From Prochlorococcus sp. AG-315-C08 (GTDB lineage Bacteria > Cyanobacteriota > Cyanobacteriia > PCC-6307 > Cyanobiaceae): a stretch of DNA of 42,261 nucleotides. The notes beneath the pieces are model-generated. The model was given only the letters and a program-made list of their open reading frames with translations, did not search any database and was not told the DNA's origin. The position numbers were made by a program, and so were the translations under genes. Positions within the stretch are counted from its first letter, which is position 1; the number at the start of each line of letters is the position of its first letter. This document shows, piece after piece, positions 6,467 to 41,340 of this stretch. Where the stretch lies: assembly GCA_003284185.1 (NCBI GenBank), contig QBWB01000005.1, forward strand, positions 1-42,261, given 5' to 3'.

Positions 6467-6647
6467 CAGTTCGTCTGAAGCGACAAGGATCAATGATTTA
6501 GGTGAGTCAATTCAGTCGAAACTCCTCTGCATCGTTTAGGTGCCCTATAGGAGAAAAGCCTTTCAACTAGAAACTTGGCCCCAGGTGCCATTTACAGAAG
6601 CTTCCAAAAAAACGATAAAGAAAAGGGCCTTTTAAGGCCCTTTTCTT
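6467..6647 (+). ncRNA. Probable small RNA in repeat copy 1
   Basis: A -10 box TATAAT (6455-6460) stands about 7 bases upstream, and a strong intrinsic terminator closes the segment. About 180 bases between them have no open frame, higher GC than the surroundings and several short stems (for example CTCCT with AGGAG, ACTTGG with CCAGGT). The length would suit a 6S-type RNA, but I cannot show the 6S fold and do not assign a family. The identical copy is at 11011-11191. Confidence 0.45.
6618..6647. terminator. Strong bidirectional terminator hairpin
   Basis: AAGAAAAGGGCC (6618-6629) pairs perfectly with GGCCCTTTTCTT (636-647 of the same block). The T-rich right arm gives a U tract for plus transcripts and the A-rich left arm gives one for minus transcripts. 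Confidence 0.75.
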
Positions 6648-11010: not shown

Positions 11011-11191
11011 CAGTTCGTCTGAAGCGACAAGGATCAATGATTTAGGTGAGTCAATTCAGTCGAAACTCCTCTGCATCGTTTAGGTGCCCTATAGGAGAAA
11101 AGCCTTTCAACTAGAAACTTGGCCCCAGGTGCCATTTACAGAAGCTTCCAAAAAAACGATAAAGAAAAGGGCCTTTTAAGGCCCTTTTCTT
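11011..11191 (+). ncRNA. Probable small RNA in repeat copy 2
   Basis: Exact copy of the 6467-6647 element: TATAAT box at 10999-11004, GC-richer non-coding body and the bidirectional terminator at 11162-11191. Two identical copies would double the dose of the RNA if both promoters are active. Confidence 0.45.
11162..11191. terminator. Strong bidirectional terminator, copy 2
   Basis: Same 12-bp perfect stem as at 6618-6647, with A-rich left arm and T-rich right arm. Confidence 0.75.
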
Positions 11192-31789: not shown

Positions 31790-33315
31790 TTGAACAACCC
31801 ACAAGTCATTGTTATTGGAAGTGGTATTGGAGGTTTATGTTGTGCAGGATTGCTAGCAAAAGCCGGTAAGAAAGTCCTTATTCTTGAAGCTCATAGGAAA
31901 CTGGTGGAGCTGCACATGCTTTTGAAAGAAATGGCTATAAATTTGAATATGGCCCTTCATTATGGAGTGGAATAGGTAATTGGCCAACTACGAATCCCCT
32001 GGGTCAAATATTGAAAGCACTAGGACAAGAAATTGAATTACTAAAATATCAAGATTGGAATGTGGAGGTTCCCAAAGGTAATTTCACAATGGGTGTAGGA
32101 GATAAACGATTTATAGAGAAAATAAAAGCCATTAGTGGAGATAACAGTAATAAAGGAATGGGAAGCATTTTTGAATGCAGTCAAACCTATTGGAGAAGCA
32201 GCAAATGCAATTCCTTTATTCGCTTTCAATCCAAACAAAGCTGATATCCTTGAACTCATGAAAAGGAGTAAAAATATAATTCCACACTTAAGTTCTATCA
32301 AATATCTTGGAGGTGCCTTTGAATCAGTGGTGGATGAACATATTGAAGACCCTTTTTTGAGAAATTGGGTTAACTTACTTTGTTTTCTTATAAGCGGTTT
32401 AACCAGAAATGAAACAAATGCAGCAGCAATGGCAACTCTTTTTAGAGATTGGTTTAAACCTAATGCATAATTGGAATATCCAAAAGGAAGAAGCGAATCT
32501 ATCGTAAATGCACTTTTAAATGGTATTTATTCGTTTGGCGGAGAACTACAACTTAATTCAAAAGTTGATGAAATCATTATTTAAAAGAATAAGGCTAGCG
32601 GAGTAAAACTACAAAATGGAGAAAGACTGACTGCTGAGCATATTGTTAGTAATGCTGATATATGGAACACAATTGAGTTCTTCCAAAAGAAGTAGCAAAG
32701 AGATGGAAAAGAGAAAGATCAAAAACTCCTAAATGTGAGTCATTCCTCCACATTCACCTAGGTTCATGCAGAAGGACTTTAAATATTCCTATTAACTCAA
32801 TATGGGTTGATGATTGGAACGAAAGTATACGTGCTGAATGAAATGTAATTGTTTTATCAATCCCATCTGCCGTGGATCCATTTATGGCTGCACCAAACAA
32901 ACATATCCTTCATGGATACACACCAGCAAATGAACCATGGAGATTTTGAGAAACCCTAGGACATAAAGATGAGAAATATAAAAACTTAAAAGTAGAACGC
33001 TGCTCTATTTTTTGGAAACCACTTGAGAATTTAAATCCTGATATCAAAGAAAGATGCGATAGAAAAATGTTTGGAACTCCACTGACTAATAGGAAATTTT
33101 AAAATGCAACGAATGGAAGTGATGGACCAGCATCGTCTGAAGCTAAGGGACTTTTTCCTGGAAATGAAACTCCAATAAAGAACCTATTCCTTTGCGGGAC
33201 AAGTACTTTGCCGGCTATCGGTATACCGCCAGTTGACGCCAGTGGGGCATTAACAGCCAATACAATTCTTGGAACAGTATTTCCAAGGAACCTTCTTAAG
33301 GATTTAGGCTTATAA
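31790..33315 (+). pseudogene. Decayed carotenoid isomerase / phytoene desaturase-like flavoprotein
   Basis: Starts intact with the FAD-binding motif [21 protein letters not shown] missing base near 31902 breaks the next block ([17 protein letters not shown]). Frames shift again near 32150 and 32680, with stops at 32468, 32582, about 32839, 32947 and 33100. Between them are CrtISO-type pieces: LHGYTPANEPWRF, KYKNLKVERC and the C-terminal LFLCGTSTLPAIGIPPVDAS and GALTANTILG. Full length would be about 505 aa, normal for the family. The gene cannot make a working enzyme; the decay is far advanced but the ends are still well kept. Confidence 0.85.
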
Positions 33316-36697: not shown

Positions 36698-38149
36698 ATG
36701 AGAGAACAAGATATTCCTCCAATATCTGGTGAAGAACAGAAAATTCTTTCCCTAGTAAGTCAAACAAATGATCTAACTTCAAGAAAGTCAAGGTTGGACT
36801 TAAAGAATATCCAATCAACTTTTGCATGTGCTCTACATATGCATCAGCCAACTATACCGGCGGGAAAAGATGGGAAATTTATATCACATTTGGAATACAT
36901 GTTTGAGAATATCAATGAAGGTGATAACCATAACGCCGAACCATTTGCTGAATGTTATAAACGCCTGGCTGAAATAATTCCTGAGTTAATAAAAAAAGGA
37001 TACAATCCACGAATCATGCTTGATTATTCAGGGAACTTACTCTGGGGTATTGAGCAAATGAATCGTAAAGATATTCTTTCTTCATTAAAACTGTTGACAT
37101 GTGATGAAGCTATTCAACCCCATGTTGAATGGCTTGGGACATTTTGGAGCCATGCAGTTGCATCTTCAACTCCTATAGAAGACTTTAAGCTTCAGATATT
37201 AGCCTGGCAACAGCACTACTTTTCAATGTTTGGGGAGCAAGCCTTAAAAAGAGTGAAAGGCTTTTCGTTACCTGAAATGCACCTCCCCAATCATCCAGAT
37301 ACTCTCTATGAATTAATAACAGCACTTAATGAATGTGGATACCGTTGGCTACTTGTTCAAGAACATACTGTAGAAAACTTAGATGGCTCAACTCTTATAG
37401 ATGACCAGAAATATATACCAAATATAATTCAAGCTAGAAATTCCAATAATGAAATTGCGACAATTGTTGCACTCATAAAAACACAAGGATCAGATACAAA
37501 GCTAGTGGGACAGATGCAACCCTATTACGAAGCACTAGGTCTAAATAGACAATCATTGGGTACAAGAATTGCTCCTTCTATAGTCGTACAAATAGCAGAT
37601 GGTGAAAATGGTGGAGTAATGATGAATGAGTTTCCTCAGGCCTTTATTGAAGCTTATAAAAAGATTGGTCTTAAAGGTAATGATATTAGTACTGCTCCAA
37701 TAAACGGCACTGAGTATTTAGATTTATTAGATAACATAGGTATAAAGTCAGAGCACTTCCCCGTAATACAGGCAGCCCATCAACACAAACTATGGCAAAA
37801 GATTGGGGACTCCATTTCAGCGAAATCGATAGATAAAGGAATAAAAGAACTGACTTTTTCAGATCAATCTTTTTCAATGACTGGAAATAGCTGGACCAAC
37901 GACCTTGATTGGGAAGAAGGATATAAAAATGTATTGGAACCAATTAGGCTGCTTAGCTCGAAATTTCACAAGAAATTTACACCTTTAGTCAATAAAGATC
38001 CTTCAGTAACTAAAACTCACAGATATAAAGAGGCACTTCTCCATCTTCTATTACTTGAGACAAGCTGTTTCCGATATTGGGGACAAGGTACATGGACCAA
38101 TTACGCTAATGAAATATATAAAAGAGGAGATAAAATACTTGAAACCTAA
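36698..38149 (+). CDS. Glycoside hydrolase family 57 protein (483 aa)
   Basis: Conserved GH57 motifs are visible: ALHMHQPTIP (45-54, HxHQP), GFSLPEMHLP (188-197, nucleophile Glu193) and QIADGENGG (298-306, DGE with Asp301 as the likely acid/base). The family includes alpha-amylases, branching enzymes and 4-alpha-glucanotransferases acting on alpha-glucans with retention. Length fits the short bacterial branch. In cyanobacteria it probably acts on glycogen or related glucans in the cytosol. A glutamine amidotransferase gene follows in the same direction after a long hairpin. Confidence 0.85.
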   Translation: MREQDIPPISGEEQKILSLVSQTNDLTSRKSRLDLKNIQSTFACALHMHQPTIPAGKDGKFISHLEYMFENINEGDNHNAEPFAECYKRLAEIIPELIKKGYNPRIMLDYSGNLLWGIEQMNRKDILSSLKLLTCDEAIQPHVEWLGTFWSHAVASSTPIEDFKLQILAWQQHYFSMFGEQALKRVKGFSLPEMHLPNHPDTLYELITALNECGYRWLLVQEHTVENLDGSTLIDDQKYIPNIIQARNSNNEIATIVALIKTQGSDTKLVGQMQPYYEALGLNRQSLGTRIAPSIVVQIADGENGGVMMNEFPQAFIEAYKKIGLKGNDISTAPINGTEYLDLLDNIGIKSEHFPVIQAAHQHKLWQKIGDSISAKSIDKGIKELTFSDQSFSMTGNSWTNDLDWEEGYKNVLEPIRLLSSKFHKKFTPLVNKDPSVTKTHRYKEALLHLLLLETSCFRYWGQGTWTNYANEIYKRGDKILET

Positions 38150-38205
38150 TTATTAAAACTTAAACAGAGCTACTTCAATAAAATTCAAACATATTCAGTC
38201 AGAAA

Positions 38206-38262
38206 ATCTAATTCCCTTCTTGATAAGGAATAACATATTCCTTATCAAGAAGGGAATTAGAT
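38206..38262. repeat. Perfect 27-bp inverted repeat overlapping a start codon
   Basis: Arms 38206-38232 and 38236-38262 are exactly complementary around a 3-base loop (ACA). The right arm includes the purine-rich AAGAAGGGAA that should be the ribosome-binding site and the first two bases of the ATG at 38261. As RNA the start site would be fully buried. There is no T run after it, so it is not a plain terminator, though it may also end the GH57 transcript. Confidence 0.9.
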
Positions 38263-38995
38263 GAGAAGATTAGTAGTTCTACAACATTTGGAGAGAGAAG
38301 GACCTGGGTTGTTTTCACTCATAGCCAAAGAAAGAGGACTGACTGTTAGCTTATTTCGTCTAGATCTAGGAGAAGATCTGCCAAGTTTGATTAAAGGAGA
38401 TTTACTTTTAGTTTTAGGTGGACCTATGGGAATAAAAGATATTAAAAATCCAATTTATCCATGGTTATTAAAAGAGGTTGAATTTATACAAAAAGCCTAC
38501 AATCAAAAGATTGCAATCATGGGAATCTGCTTAGGTGCTCAACTTTTGGCCTATGCTACTGGTGGTAATGTTAAAGCTTTAAAAGGAGGCTCGCCTCCAA
38601 AACCTTTGCCAGAGATAGGATGGTCCGCTATCTTTTCCGATGGAATAAACAAAGAAGATCATTTGATTTCTTTTTGGGATCTACCTTTGACTGTTTTGCA
38701 CTGGCATGGAGATAGGATTGTATTACCTATGACCGCGGAGTTAATAGCAAGTAGCGCACGATGTAAAGAACAATTCTTTAAGATTGGATCTTTAGCTTTT
38801 GGACTTCAATTTCATATTGAGACAGATGAGAGAATGGTTAACAGATGGATTAATGAAGATGCTGAATTTATAACGTCAACTTTAGGTGCAGAAGGGAAAT
38901 CAATTTTACAACAACAACAACAATACTATGGGAATAAAACTCTTCAATCCAGAGTGGCATTAATAAACAAATTATTTGATTCTCTGGGGGCTTAA
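38261..38995 (+). CDS. Class I glutamine amidotransferase (GATase1) protein (244 aa)
   Basis: The catalytic triad is complete: nucleophile MGICLGAQ (Cys90), and FGLQFHIE with His185 and Glu187. LVLGGPMGI (50-58) is the usual oxyanion loop. This is the stand-alone GMP synthase-like amidotransferase type that releases ammonia from glutamine for an unknown acceptor. A run of glutamines (residues about 215-220) lies near the C-terminus. The ATG sits at the edge of the 27-bp inverted repeat, so translation may depend on melting the hairpin. Confidence 0.85.
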   Translation: MRRLVVLQHLEREGPGLFSLIAKERGLTVSLFRLDLGEDLPSLIKGDLLLVLGGPMGIKDIKNPIYPWLLKEVEFIQKAYNQKIAIMGICLGAQLLAYATGGNVKALKGGSPPKPLPEIGWSAIFSDGINKEDHLISFWDLPLTVLHWHGDRIVLPMTAELIASSARCKEQFFKIGSLAFGLQFHIETDERMVNRWINEDAEFITSTLGAEGKSILQQQQQYYGNKTLQSRVALINKLFDSLGA

Positions 38996-39043: not shown

Positions 39044-39268
39044 TTTGGTCAAAAAGTTTCAATATTAACAGAGATTTCAAAAATTGCAGCAAATTATGGA
39101 TGCAATTTCTATGAAAGCGAATACAAGAAAGTTGATTATCCCTTCTACAAGTCTAAAGAAAAGCTTAATACGATTACGAAATGGTTAATGGTTAATGTTG
39201 AGAAACAAAAACAACAATTATCGAATAAATGCGTTAGGGTCACTGATCTTCTTTACGACTATGACTAG
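39044..39268 (+). pseudogene. Start-less reading frame (74 codons)
   Basis: Open from TGA 39041 to TAG 39266: VSILTEISKIAANYGCNFYE, then YKKVDYPFYKSKEKLNTITK and VEKQKQQLSNKCVRVTDLLY. Coherent and soluble, but the only ATG is late (MVNVEKQ). It overlaps the start of 39195-39452 in another frame. Likely the end of a gene whose 5' part is gone. Confidence 0.35.
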
Positions 39269-39452
39269 CACTAATTTTGATAGAAATGGGCTTGATGCTG
39301 CAGGGATTCATTGGATGCAATATCTTTCAATGACATCAATGTCATTACTAATATTCATTGTGGCATTAGACAAAGCTGTACCCAGCTTCCATCATTTTAT
39401 CTTGTTTTCAATGGGCCAAGCAGGAATTATCTGTAATGGATTTGCCAGATAA
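39195..39452 (+). CDS. Membrane protein (85 aa)
   Basis: The ATG gives MLRNKNNNYRINALGSLIFF and two hydrophobic stretches (LGSLIFFTTM and MTSMSLLIFIVALDKAV), with FHHFILFSMGQAGIICNG near the end. Its start overlaps another coherent frame (39044-39268), so only one may be real over 39195-39268. Family unknown. Confidence 0.45.
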   Translation: MLRNKNNNYRINALGSLIFFTTMTSTNFDRNGLDAAGIHWMQYLSMTSMSLLIFIVALDKAVPSFHHFILFSMGQAGIICNGFAR

Positions 39453-39775: not shown

Positions 39776-41062
39776 ATGAAAGCATCCTCAGATTCAGAAA
39801 ATTGGGTGCAGAGCCTTAGAAAGCTAATCAAAGAATCTTTGGGTGCAAACTGGCAGATCAAACCCATCGAAGGCAAAACAAAACTTAGAATACGCCTAGA
39901 AGATGGAAGTCGCATTGAAAAAATGCTTGGAATTAATTGGTCAGAATCAGAAGCAGAAAAAATCTTAAGCACAGTAGAAGATATCCATCAGTTAACTACC
40001 AAACAAAAGGTTCCACTAGAAGTAGCGATAGTACAAGTTAAAAAGATCCGAAATAAAGTGCAACGTCTGGCCTCAACACCTAGTCCAAAACTTTTATTAA
40101 ATGCTTGGGAAAAATATGAGAATCACAAAGTTAATGTTGAGAAAGACATAACTCAAAGCACTTGGAATCAAGAATATGGAGGGAAGCCTAATTATGGAAT
40201 ACTACCGCCACGAAAAAAAGATCAGGGTAAAACTTATTTACAGCTAAAACAAGTCAAAGCAAGCACTGCAAATGAATTGCTGCTAAGAATTGCTGAGAGA
40301 TTTGAGTATGGAACAAAAAACCAATATATCAGAGTTCAACATATTGCAGCTTTTTTAAAATGGGCAACGTCAAAGGAATCAGGATTTCTTTTAACAGAAA
40401 AAGATTGGTCTCCTCCTCCAAAAAATTATTTAAAAAATTATTACGGCAGAGAATCATCTCAAAAGCCAGTAAAAGATTCAGTTCAAATAGTTGCCATAGA
40501 AGATAAAGATCTTCTTCAACTAATTAATTCATTACCTATTGACGTTGATAAAGATAAAAAGAAGCATCGACTTAGAGATCGTGCAATGGAATGGGACTTA
40601 GCTATAAAACTCTCGATAGTTTATGGATTGAAGCCTAGTGAAGTAAGCCACGAATATCTAGAAGTAAAAAAGAATGGGAAAGAATTTATATGGAGTAGTT
40701 ACTCTAAAAAAGTAGGTAGTCACAAAACAAAACAAAGAAGATTATGGCCACTTCATCCAAAGTGGGAAAAAGAGTGGCATTTAATTAAAAGAATTAAAAA
40801 CAAAGCTCCACTTCCTCGAATGAAAGGAGTTGCTGCAGAATCTTTTAAAAATTATTTGAGATTTAACGTAGTTTGGAATCGTCTTAAGGCTCAAAACGAT
40901 GTAAGTCCATATTCATTTCGACATTCATATAGCAAGCGAGCACATCAAATTTACAACTTAAAGGCTAGTAAAGTTGCTGCTTTTCTAGGTCATTCAATTA
41001 CTGTACATAATTCAACTTATGCACAATGGATTACTGCAACAAAAATAAAAAACAACAATTAA
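39776..41062 (+). CDS. Tyrosine recombinase / phage-type integrase, altered (428 aa)
   Basis: The C-terminal catalytic part is clear: SPYSFRHSYSKR (377-388, box with R382), FLGHSITVHNSTYAQWI (403-419) with His406 and nucleophile Tyr415. The first catalytic arginine, normally in GLR-x-SE, is lysine here (YGLKPSEV, K286). The N-terminal 230 residues include a helical DNA-arm part and a Pro-rich linker (PPRKKDQG, SPPPKNYL). The family cuts and rejoins DNA through a 3'-phosphotyrosine. With K286 the activity may be reduced. It lies alone, with no excisionase or phage genes, so it may be a relic of an island. Confidence 0.8.
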   Translation: MKASSDSENWVQSLRKLIKESLGANWQIKPIEGKTKLRIRLEDGSRIEKMLGINWSESEAEKILSTVEDIHQLTTKQKVPLEVAIVQVKKIRNKVQRLASTPSPKLLLNAWEKYENHKVNVEKDITQSTWNQEYGGKPNYGILPPRKKDQGKTYLQLKQVKASTANELLLRIAERFEYGTKNQYIRVQHIAAFLKWATSKESGFLLTEKDWSPPPKNYLKNYYGRESSQKPVKDSVQIVAIEDKDLLQLINSLPIDVDKDKKKHRLRDRAMEWDLAIKLSIVYGLKPSEVSHEYLEVKKNGKEFIWSSYSKKVGSHKTKQRRLWPLHPKWEKEWHLIKRIKNKAPLPRMKGVAAESFKNYLRFNVVWNRLKAQNDVSPYSFRHSYSKRAHQIYNLKASKVAAFLGHSITVHNSTYAQWITATKIKNNN

Positions 41063-41121: not shown

Positions 41122-41340
41122 TCAATGAGATATATAAGTCCCTTTTGGATAAAGACGAGATATTTCATTAAATTGCTTGGTTATTTGGTTCTCTTTATCG
41201 CTGTCAATTTTGTACTTAAGCATCAAAATATTATGAATACACCAGAAGATAAAACTAACTAAAAAATACCAAGGGATGGGGTGAGCCAATTTCACATAGA
41301 TAAATATCCTTATAATTACAATCTTTAAAATAATTTTCAT
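41122..41340 (-). CDS. Membrane protein (72 aa)
   Basis: Starts MKIILKIVIIRIFIYVKLAH, then a second hydrophobic part (WYFLVSFIFWCIHNILML), then a polar tail with KYKIDSDKENQITKQFNE. Two membrane segments. Convergent with the recombinase gene. Function unknown. Confidence 0.5.
   Translation of the reverse strand: MKIILKIVIIRIFIYVKLAHPIPWYFLVSFIFWCIHNILMLKYKIDSDKENQITKQFNEISRLYPKGTYISH

Follow-up and report, generated by a model that had tools for sequence, protein, structure and literature searches.

How can a gene be translated when its start codon lies within a long and perfect RNA hairpin? The question is raised by a 42,261-nt stretch of DNA from Prochlorococcus sp. AG-315-C08 (contig QBWB01000005.1; hereafter the window), whose genome assembly, G000, holds 961,761 bases in 77 contigs and is 51.87% complete. 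An initial annotation had described a 27-bp perfect inverted repeat with a 3-base loop, the right arm of which holds the ribosome-binding region of a glutamine amidotransferase (GATase) gene together with part of its ATG. Our search for arms spaced up to 300 nt apart recovered exactly this structure: at 38206-38262, two 27-nt arms that are 100% complementary enclose a 3-nt loop. The GATase ATG occupies 38261-38263, and its A and T fall in the right arm (Table 1).

The second 27-nt arm pair in the window, found with the same spacing limit, was only 78% complementary, and the next-longest perfect arms among the 25 longest pairs listed measured 14 nt. From base composition, 1.4e-9 perfect 27-nt arm pairs with a loop of 3-20 nt are expected per window; in 60 order-2 Markov sequences of window length, perfect arms (loop 3-10) reached 13 nt at most. 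A chance origin of the 27-nt perfect arms is excluded. The RNA of the hairpin folds with -44 kcal/mol (z = -7.86), and none of 200 shuffles was equally stable; the GC content of the stem-loop is 30%. It is the longest perfect hairpin in the part of G000 that we sampled (709 kb).

Table 1. Features of the GH57-GATase locus in the window.
Feature	Position	Strand	Remarks
GH57 glycoside hydrolase gene	36698..38149	+	upstream; stop to hairpin, 56 nt
Left arm of the perfect inverted repeat	38206..38232	+	27 nt
Candidate -10 box TAACAT over the loop	38231..38236	+	TSS at about 38243 would skip the left arm; loose consensus from general knowledge, common by chance
Loop	38233..38235	+	3 nt
Right arm	38236..38262	+	27 nt; holds the start-proximal region and the first two ATG bases
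Weak Shine-Dalgarno-like AAGG	38250..38253	+	paired in the stem; consensus from general knowledge
In-frame TAG immediately 5' of the ATG	38258..38260	+	excludes an in-frame start further upstream
Class-I glutamine amidotransferase (GATase) gene	38261..38995	+	244 aa; Pfam GATase PF00117
85-aa gene	39195..39452	+	directly after GH57 in 19/19 relatives' loci examined

No stop interrupts the 244 codons of the GATase frame, and its relatives match over its length; the NCBIfam glutamine amidotransferase models match it only below their cut-offs. In a collection of named genomes the best matches come from Prochlorococcus, the closest with 64% protein identity. The initial annotation had held that a true start further inside the gene would refute it. 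In 27 of 29 non-self homologues, a Met aligns with residue 1 of the window protein, the two other alignments beginning at residue 2 or 3, and an LQHLERE-like motif follows the start Met in most of them. Because the homologue starts coincide and a TAG stands directly upstream, an internal start is unlikely and the annotated one appears correct.

We expressed the accessibility of a start as the computed cost of making positions -15 to +12 single-stranded at 24 C, using a 131-nt context for the ranking across the genome. The comparison set comprised 456 starts, called at the first ATG of frames of at least 150 aa in the sampled 709 kb of G000. Opening the GATase start costs 36.1 kcal/mol, the highest value of all 456; the median is 9.6, the 95th percentile 17.1, the 99th 22.3, and the next highest cost 26.3 kcal/mol. 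By this computation, and as the initial annotation had supposed, the GATase start is buried in any transcript from upstream. RNAs that begin at 38150, 38190 or 38206 and carry the whole hairpin cost 39.8, 36.1 and 38.4 kcal/mol, respectively. For 5' ends within the left arm the cost is 23.1 (38216) or 7.2 kcal/mol (38226), and for those in the loop or right arm it is 12.3 (38233), 12.2 (38237), 7.0 (38243) or 6.7 kcal/mol (38248). At 60 C, transcripts with the full hairpin still require 18.6-21.8 kcal/mol to open at the start. The ordinary accessibility of the 5'-shortened RNAs indicates that the start would be freed in a transcript beginning at or within the loop or the right arm, and not by heat.

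Start-masking leader hairpins and RNA thermometers are known to hold the start region in a stem, as does the GATase hairpin; the latter differs in having 27 uninterrupted pairs, which makes it far stabler than a switch that needs to open. The initial annotation had listed an RNA thermometer among its options, and a thermometer or other melting switch on a full-length leader would agree with the location of the start within the stem. The GATase stem, however, has no internal loops or mismatches, and opening the start of the full hairpin takes a computed 36-40 kcal/mol at 24 C. With the start still closed at 60 C (at least 18.6 kcal/mol), an RNA thermometer is not supported, and we regard this or another melting switch on the full-length leader as extremely improbable.

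Another option in the initial annotation, that only read-through from GH57 is blocked while a leaderless RNA is translated, fits the computed accessibilities best. Strict leaderlessness proved unneeded in this proposal, since it would be enough for the RNA to begin at or within the loop or the right arm. The reading that we favour, tentatively and as a prediction of function, is that a hairpin born by template switching uncouples GATase from GH57 read-through. RNA running on from GH57 would fold the GATase start into the 27-bp duplex and yield no GATase, which would be translated only from RNA with its 5' end at or inside the loop or right arm. Such an end might come from a promoter within the palindrome or from cleavage of the duplex by an enzyme of the RNase III type.

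Neither source is without difficulty. The putative -10 box over the loop is weak, and RNA from a TAAAAT at 38179 would hold the whole hairpin, both of which count against uncoupling. As for cleavage, the 3' fragments left by cutting within the right arm have a computed opening cost of 2.8-12.3 kcal/mol within themselves; if the duplex were cut close to the loop, however, what is left of the left arm could pair again strongly with the RNA (-39.6 kcal/mol with cutting at 38236, against -8.3 at 38252). RNase III (TIGR02191) occurs in 33 of 41 genomes of the genus, in 31 of them over the cut-off, but we did not find it in the 52% complete G000, which also speaks against the model. Intercistronic RNase III sites are known from the early mRNA of phage T7. 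Like these, the GATase hairpin is a long hairpin just 5' of the next gene's start, possibly on a joint transcript, and cleavage would free the 3' cistron; unlike these, its stem is perfect and extends into the ATG, and its cleavage is hypothetical. For Prochlorococcus MED4, leaderless mRNAs are thought likely and many transcripts are reported to start inside genes (PMC5607370). A further source reports that cyanobacterial genes preceded by a Shine-Dalgarno sequence show very low selection for accessible starts (PMC3121790), and for that reason a buried start may matter less here than in other bacteria.

Masking of the GATase start could instead be a side effect of a hairpin that serves GH57. 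We found no U-tract on the sense strand after the stem; the terminator scan placed a terminator-like site at the stem on the minus strand only, and none of the listed frames is a long minus-strand frame running into it. Without a sense U-tract, and with a stem-loop of 30% GC, the sequence leads us to reject a canonical intrinsic terminator of GH57. A terminator of the U-tract-less, I-shaped type, or a barrier at the 3' end of the GH57 mRNA, would agree with a stem that starts 56 nt past the GH57 stop. Hairpin ends of this kind have been classed as I-shaped terminators (PMC7406221), which resemble the GATase hairpin in forming a strong hairpin soon after a stop codon without a U-tract; the latter differs in sitting on the next gene's start codon. 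Cyanobacteria are described as lacking Rho, yet in the same source the Synechococcus elongatus ends without a U-tract have strong upstream structure in only 46% of cases (75/163), compared with 89% in E. coli (PMC13289151). Together with the minus-strand orientation of the terminator-like site, this makes a role in ending the GH57 mRNA rather improbable. A known RNA family was rejected, as Rfam gave no match in the window at the gathering score. Elsewhere in the window, at 6618-6647 and 11162-11191, there are two identical terminator-like hairpins with the same flanks.

The neighbourhood points to a relocation. In the window the order is GH57, hairpin, GATase and 85-aa gene, whereas in all 19 relatives' loci examined GH57 is directly followed by the 85-aa gene (one of them, L040, has a negative gap by the rule used). 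This comparison of gene orders indicates that GATase was inserted at this point, the hairpin bordering it on the upstream side. In the relatives examined, GATase is located elsewhere and has different upstream DNA; where both genes share a contig (nine relatives), they are convergent and lie 8.7-10.7 kb apart in eight and 74.8 kb apart in G020. The genes beside GATase in genome G011 (467679-467879, 468702-469010 and 469496-469870) match contigs C23 and C8 of G000, and G000 is broadly rearranged relative to G011 in the GATase region. Two short genes near the G011 GATase match the window near 15.1 kb and were taken for a multicopy family. We dropped a simple inverted chimera as the explanation of the GH57-GATase junction, the 85-aa gene that adjoins GH57 in relatives having been found further along the window. 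When viral contigs were searched with GH57, two stretches matched by pattern and none was confirmed.

Other features of the surroundings deserve mention. A gene at 39776-41062, recombinase-like by reading, lies between the 85-aa gene and a minus-strand frame (41122-41340). It shares 70% identity with a gene in G027 and 69% with one in G023, is weakly similar to many others, was not seen at the matching place in G011, G014, G025 or G026, and has no Pfam or NCBIfam match. This gene prompted us to consider an integron-like cassette site. Cassette sites of the integron type have bulged core sites, and the candidate was dropped on account of perfect arms without such sites and a gene without a family match. 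Coding density in the window is low, 0.38 in frames of at least 100 aa as against 0.82-0.97 in 34 of 40 other G000 stretches; the G011 stretches that match the window are also of low coding density (0.47 and 0.48). A 509-aa gene, FAD-oxidoreductase-like by reading and intact in G011, is present at 31790-33312 in four pieces in changing frames and is possibly a broken gene or the site of assembly errors.

The hairpin is a single copy in the DNA that we searched. Searched with up to three mismatches, a 23-nt segment of the arm matched only its own two arms in the G000 contigs, and a 21-nt piece with up to two mismatches was found in one of 41 genomes of the genus, namely G000 itself (several of the 41 are incomplete). 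The exact 24-mer of the arm had no match in viral contigs, and the arm none in phages. A dispersed palindromic repeat of the REP or MITE type was rejected, since these searches of G000 and the 40 other genomes found no related copies. Nor did the homologues carry such a structure: no perfect arms of at least 9 nt occurred from -150 to +40 of the GATase start in the 49 informative loci of a first set of 50 (L150, with 5 nt upstream, was uninformative), nor over the same range in 28 of the 29 loci of a second set, and the 29th (L030) is the same contig region as L162, where no arm of at least 9 nt was found. The homologue set used for the start alignment and the first of these two sets overlap in part.

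How, then, did the hairpin arise? DNA-polymerase template switching would make a perfect fold-back hairpin, probably in one step, and would have done so at the time of the GATase relocation or later. Perfect stems that are created or repaired in a single step have been described (PMC8794818), and quasi-palindrome mutation in E. coli is a related template-switch system (PMC7202029). Perfect arms and a short loop, traits of template switching, are both found at the GATase hairpin, which also shares with the published template-switch-born hairpins a long stem, unique flanks and absence of the structure from the relatives examined. Those published cases, in the portion of the paper at hand, are microRNA and rRNA stems rather than a bacterial gene start, and the GATase hairpin differs from them in being known without its ancestral state. 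Because the earlier state is seen in no close relative, a template-switch origin is inferred from other loci, and by this analogy we consider it likely.

An artefact of amplification or assembly in a genome of the single-cell type would offer a different origin. The nearest named GATase homologues bear AG- names, which we take to denote single-cell genomes; G000 itself is 52% complete in 77 contigs, and the upstream gene at 31790-33312 changes frame three times. Chimeras made by phi29 polymerase are often inverted, but the inverted ones join distant parts, with an overlap peak at 6 nt and a distance peak at 250-300 nt (PMC4595205). A hairpin of 27+3+27 nt with unique sequence on both sides would presumably need two switches. 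Moreover, similar perfect hairpins are present in G011 and G033, both single-contig genomes, so that long perfect hairpins are not merely a product of fragmentary assembly. An artefact seems to us quite improbable.

We surveyed such hairpins (loop 3-10) in 709 kb of G000, 640 kb of G011, 240 kb of G014 and 400 kb of G033, with one order-1 Markov control per stretch. The four genomes yielded 24 perfect arms of at least 16 nt (9, 6, 3 and 6, in this order), as against none in each control. Arms with one mismatch numbered 3, 5, 1 and 1 (10 in total; controls 1, 1, 0 and 0), those with two mismatches 10, 2, 1 and 5 (controls 1, 4, 0 and 0), and those with three 27, 21, 10 and 14 (controls 14, 13, 5 and 3). 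The numbers of perfect and of one-mismatch arms, set against their controls, speak for an origin by template switching. Some of the counted hairpins are ordinary terminators. Two of the longest, G033 L218 (30 bp) and G011 L106 (28 bp), are terminator-like by reading, with pairing that extends beyond the T-tract; the automated count scores both as lacking a T-run, which sits deep in the stem. Hairpins that touch a start codon are few, 8 of the 97 listed, and this scarcity weighs against uncoupling as the role of the GATase hairpin. Starts in that list follow a longest-frame rule, which admits false starts and misses L189 (below): among the eight, G011 L194 was rejected as a start-codon hairpin, being coding sequence within a longer reading frame, and L190 is followed by a T-run. 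A separate observation in G000 is an 18-bp perfect hairpin (L093:12303-12341) that is separated by 19 nt, AGGAG among them, from the downstream ATG of a cytidylyltransferase-like gene (by reading).

Relatives could be aligned at several of these hairpins (aligned sequences out of other genomes with a match: L103, 14/28; L189, 14/37; L216, 19/27; L194, 19/32; L214, 1/4, only G037 being long enough). The most informative was a 19-bp hairpin in G011 (L189:12826-12868), a few bases 5' of an ATG in a gene tandem; by reading, its neighbours are the end of a gene for a metal-binding transport protein-like product and a short gene followed by a CobW-like GTPase. Across 15 sequences, 14 of them distinct (relatives L244-L258), 91.0% of the cells were paired and 9 of 19 pairs had changed on both sides. 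Covariation was 0.313, compared with 0.085 in shuffles (reached in 0 of 500) and at most 0.082 when the structure was slid. An intervening stop rules out an earlier in-frame ATG in 10 of the 15 sequences; in the other five, including G011, the frame extends back to an earlier ATG, which in four cases lies within the left arm, and the ATG beside the hairpin is a putative start. G000 has no hairpin of this type at the matching place.

The perfect 18-nt arms of G011 L103:9078 correspond to a longest perfect arm of 5-8 nt in 14 aligned relatives, and the arms of G033 L214:10935 are imperfect in the sole comparable relative, G037. At G033 L216:10635-10668, a hairpin 3 nt upstream of the start codon in a sugar-kinase-like gene (by reading), perfect arms measure 14-17 nt in four of 19 aligned relatives (L291, L292, L293 and L294, out of L286-L304), 11 nt in L287 and 4-9 nt in the other 14. 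In L293 and L294 the arms pair around a different centre, a pattern more in line with repeated template switching than with gradual compensation of single changes. Covariation may come from selection or from repeated switching, and the aligned sequences do not separate the two.

It is possible that the GATase hairpin has no selected role at all and is a scar, neutral or slightly harmful, left by recent template switching over the start of a perhaps little-used gene; although this is an unlikely outcome taken by itself, we rank it nearly as likely as uncoupling. The lack of further copies and of the hairpin at the homologues examined is in keeping with a scar, as are the perfect arms, which are perhaps young. 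A 21-bp perfect hairpin also lies within a long reading frame of G000 (L177:7353-7397), presumably that of a TldD/PmbA-like protein, and the broken gene at 31790-33312 suggests that the region tolerates damage, unless assembly errors account for it. Yet the GATase frame has stayed open over 244 codons with a full-length match to its relatives, and one other start-abutting hairpin of the genus, that of L189, covaries, which may point to use.

If uncoupling is the role of the GATase hairpin, it may matter to the cell and may have counterparts. As a speculation to which we give little credence, sequence-unrelated hairpins with homogenised arms on start codons in gene tandems might form a regulatory class of the regulator-poor Prochlorococcus. 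Its members would arise complete through template switching, and further switching would keep their arms perfect; translation of the downstream gene would then depend on RNA ends generated within the hairpin, either at an inner promoter or through cleavage by RNase III. Among them, that of GATase would stand as the extreme, newborn case and that of G011 L189:12826-12868 as an old one. In titles and abstracts we found no description of a class of perfect start-codon hairpins in cyanobacteria, an absence that is not proof. A newly arisen perfect hairpin covering a start codon would illustrate how, in a streamlined genome, a single error of replication can change the expression of a gene that has moved. 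With a covarying hairpin present elsewhere in the genus, a wider question becomes testable, namely whether start-codon hairpins in Prochlorococcus are selected or are merely mutational products.
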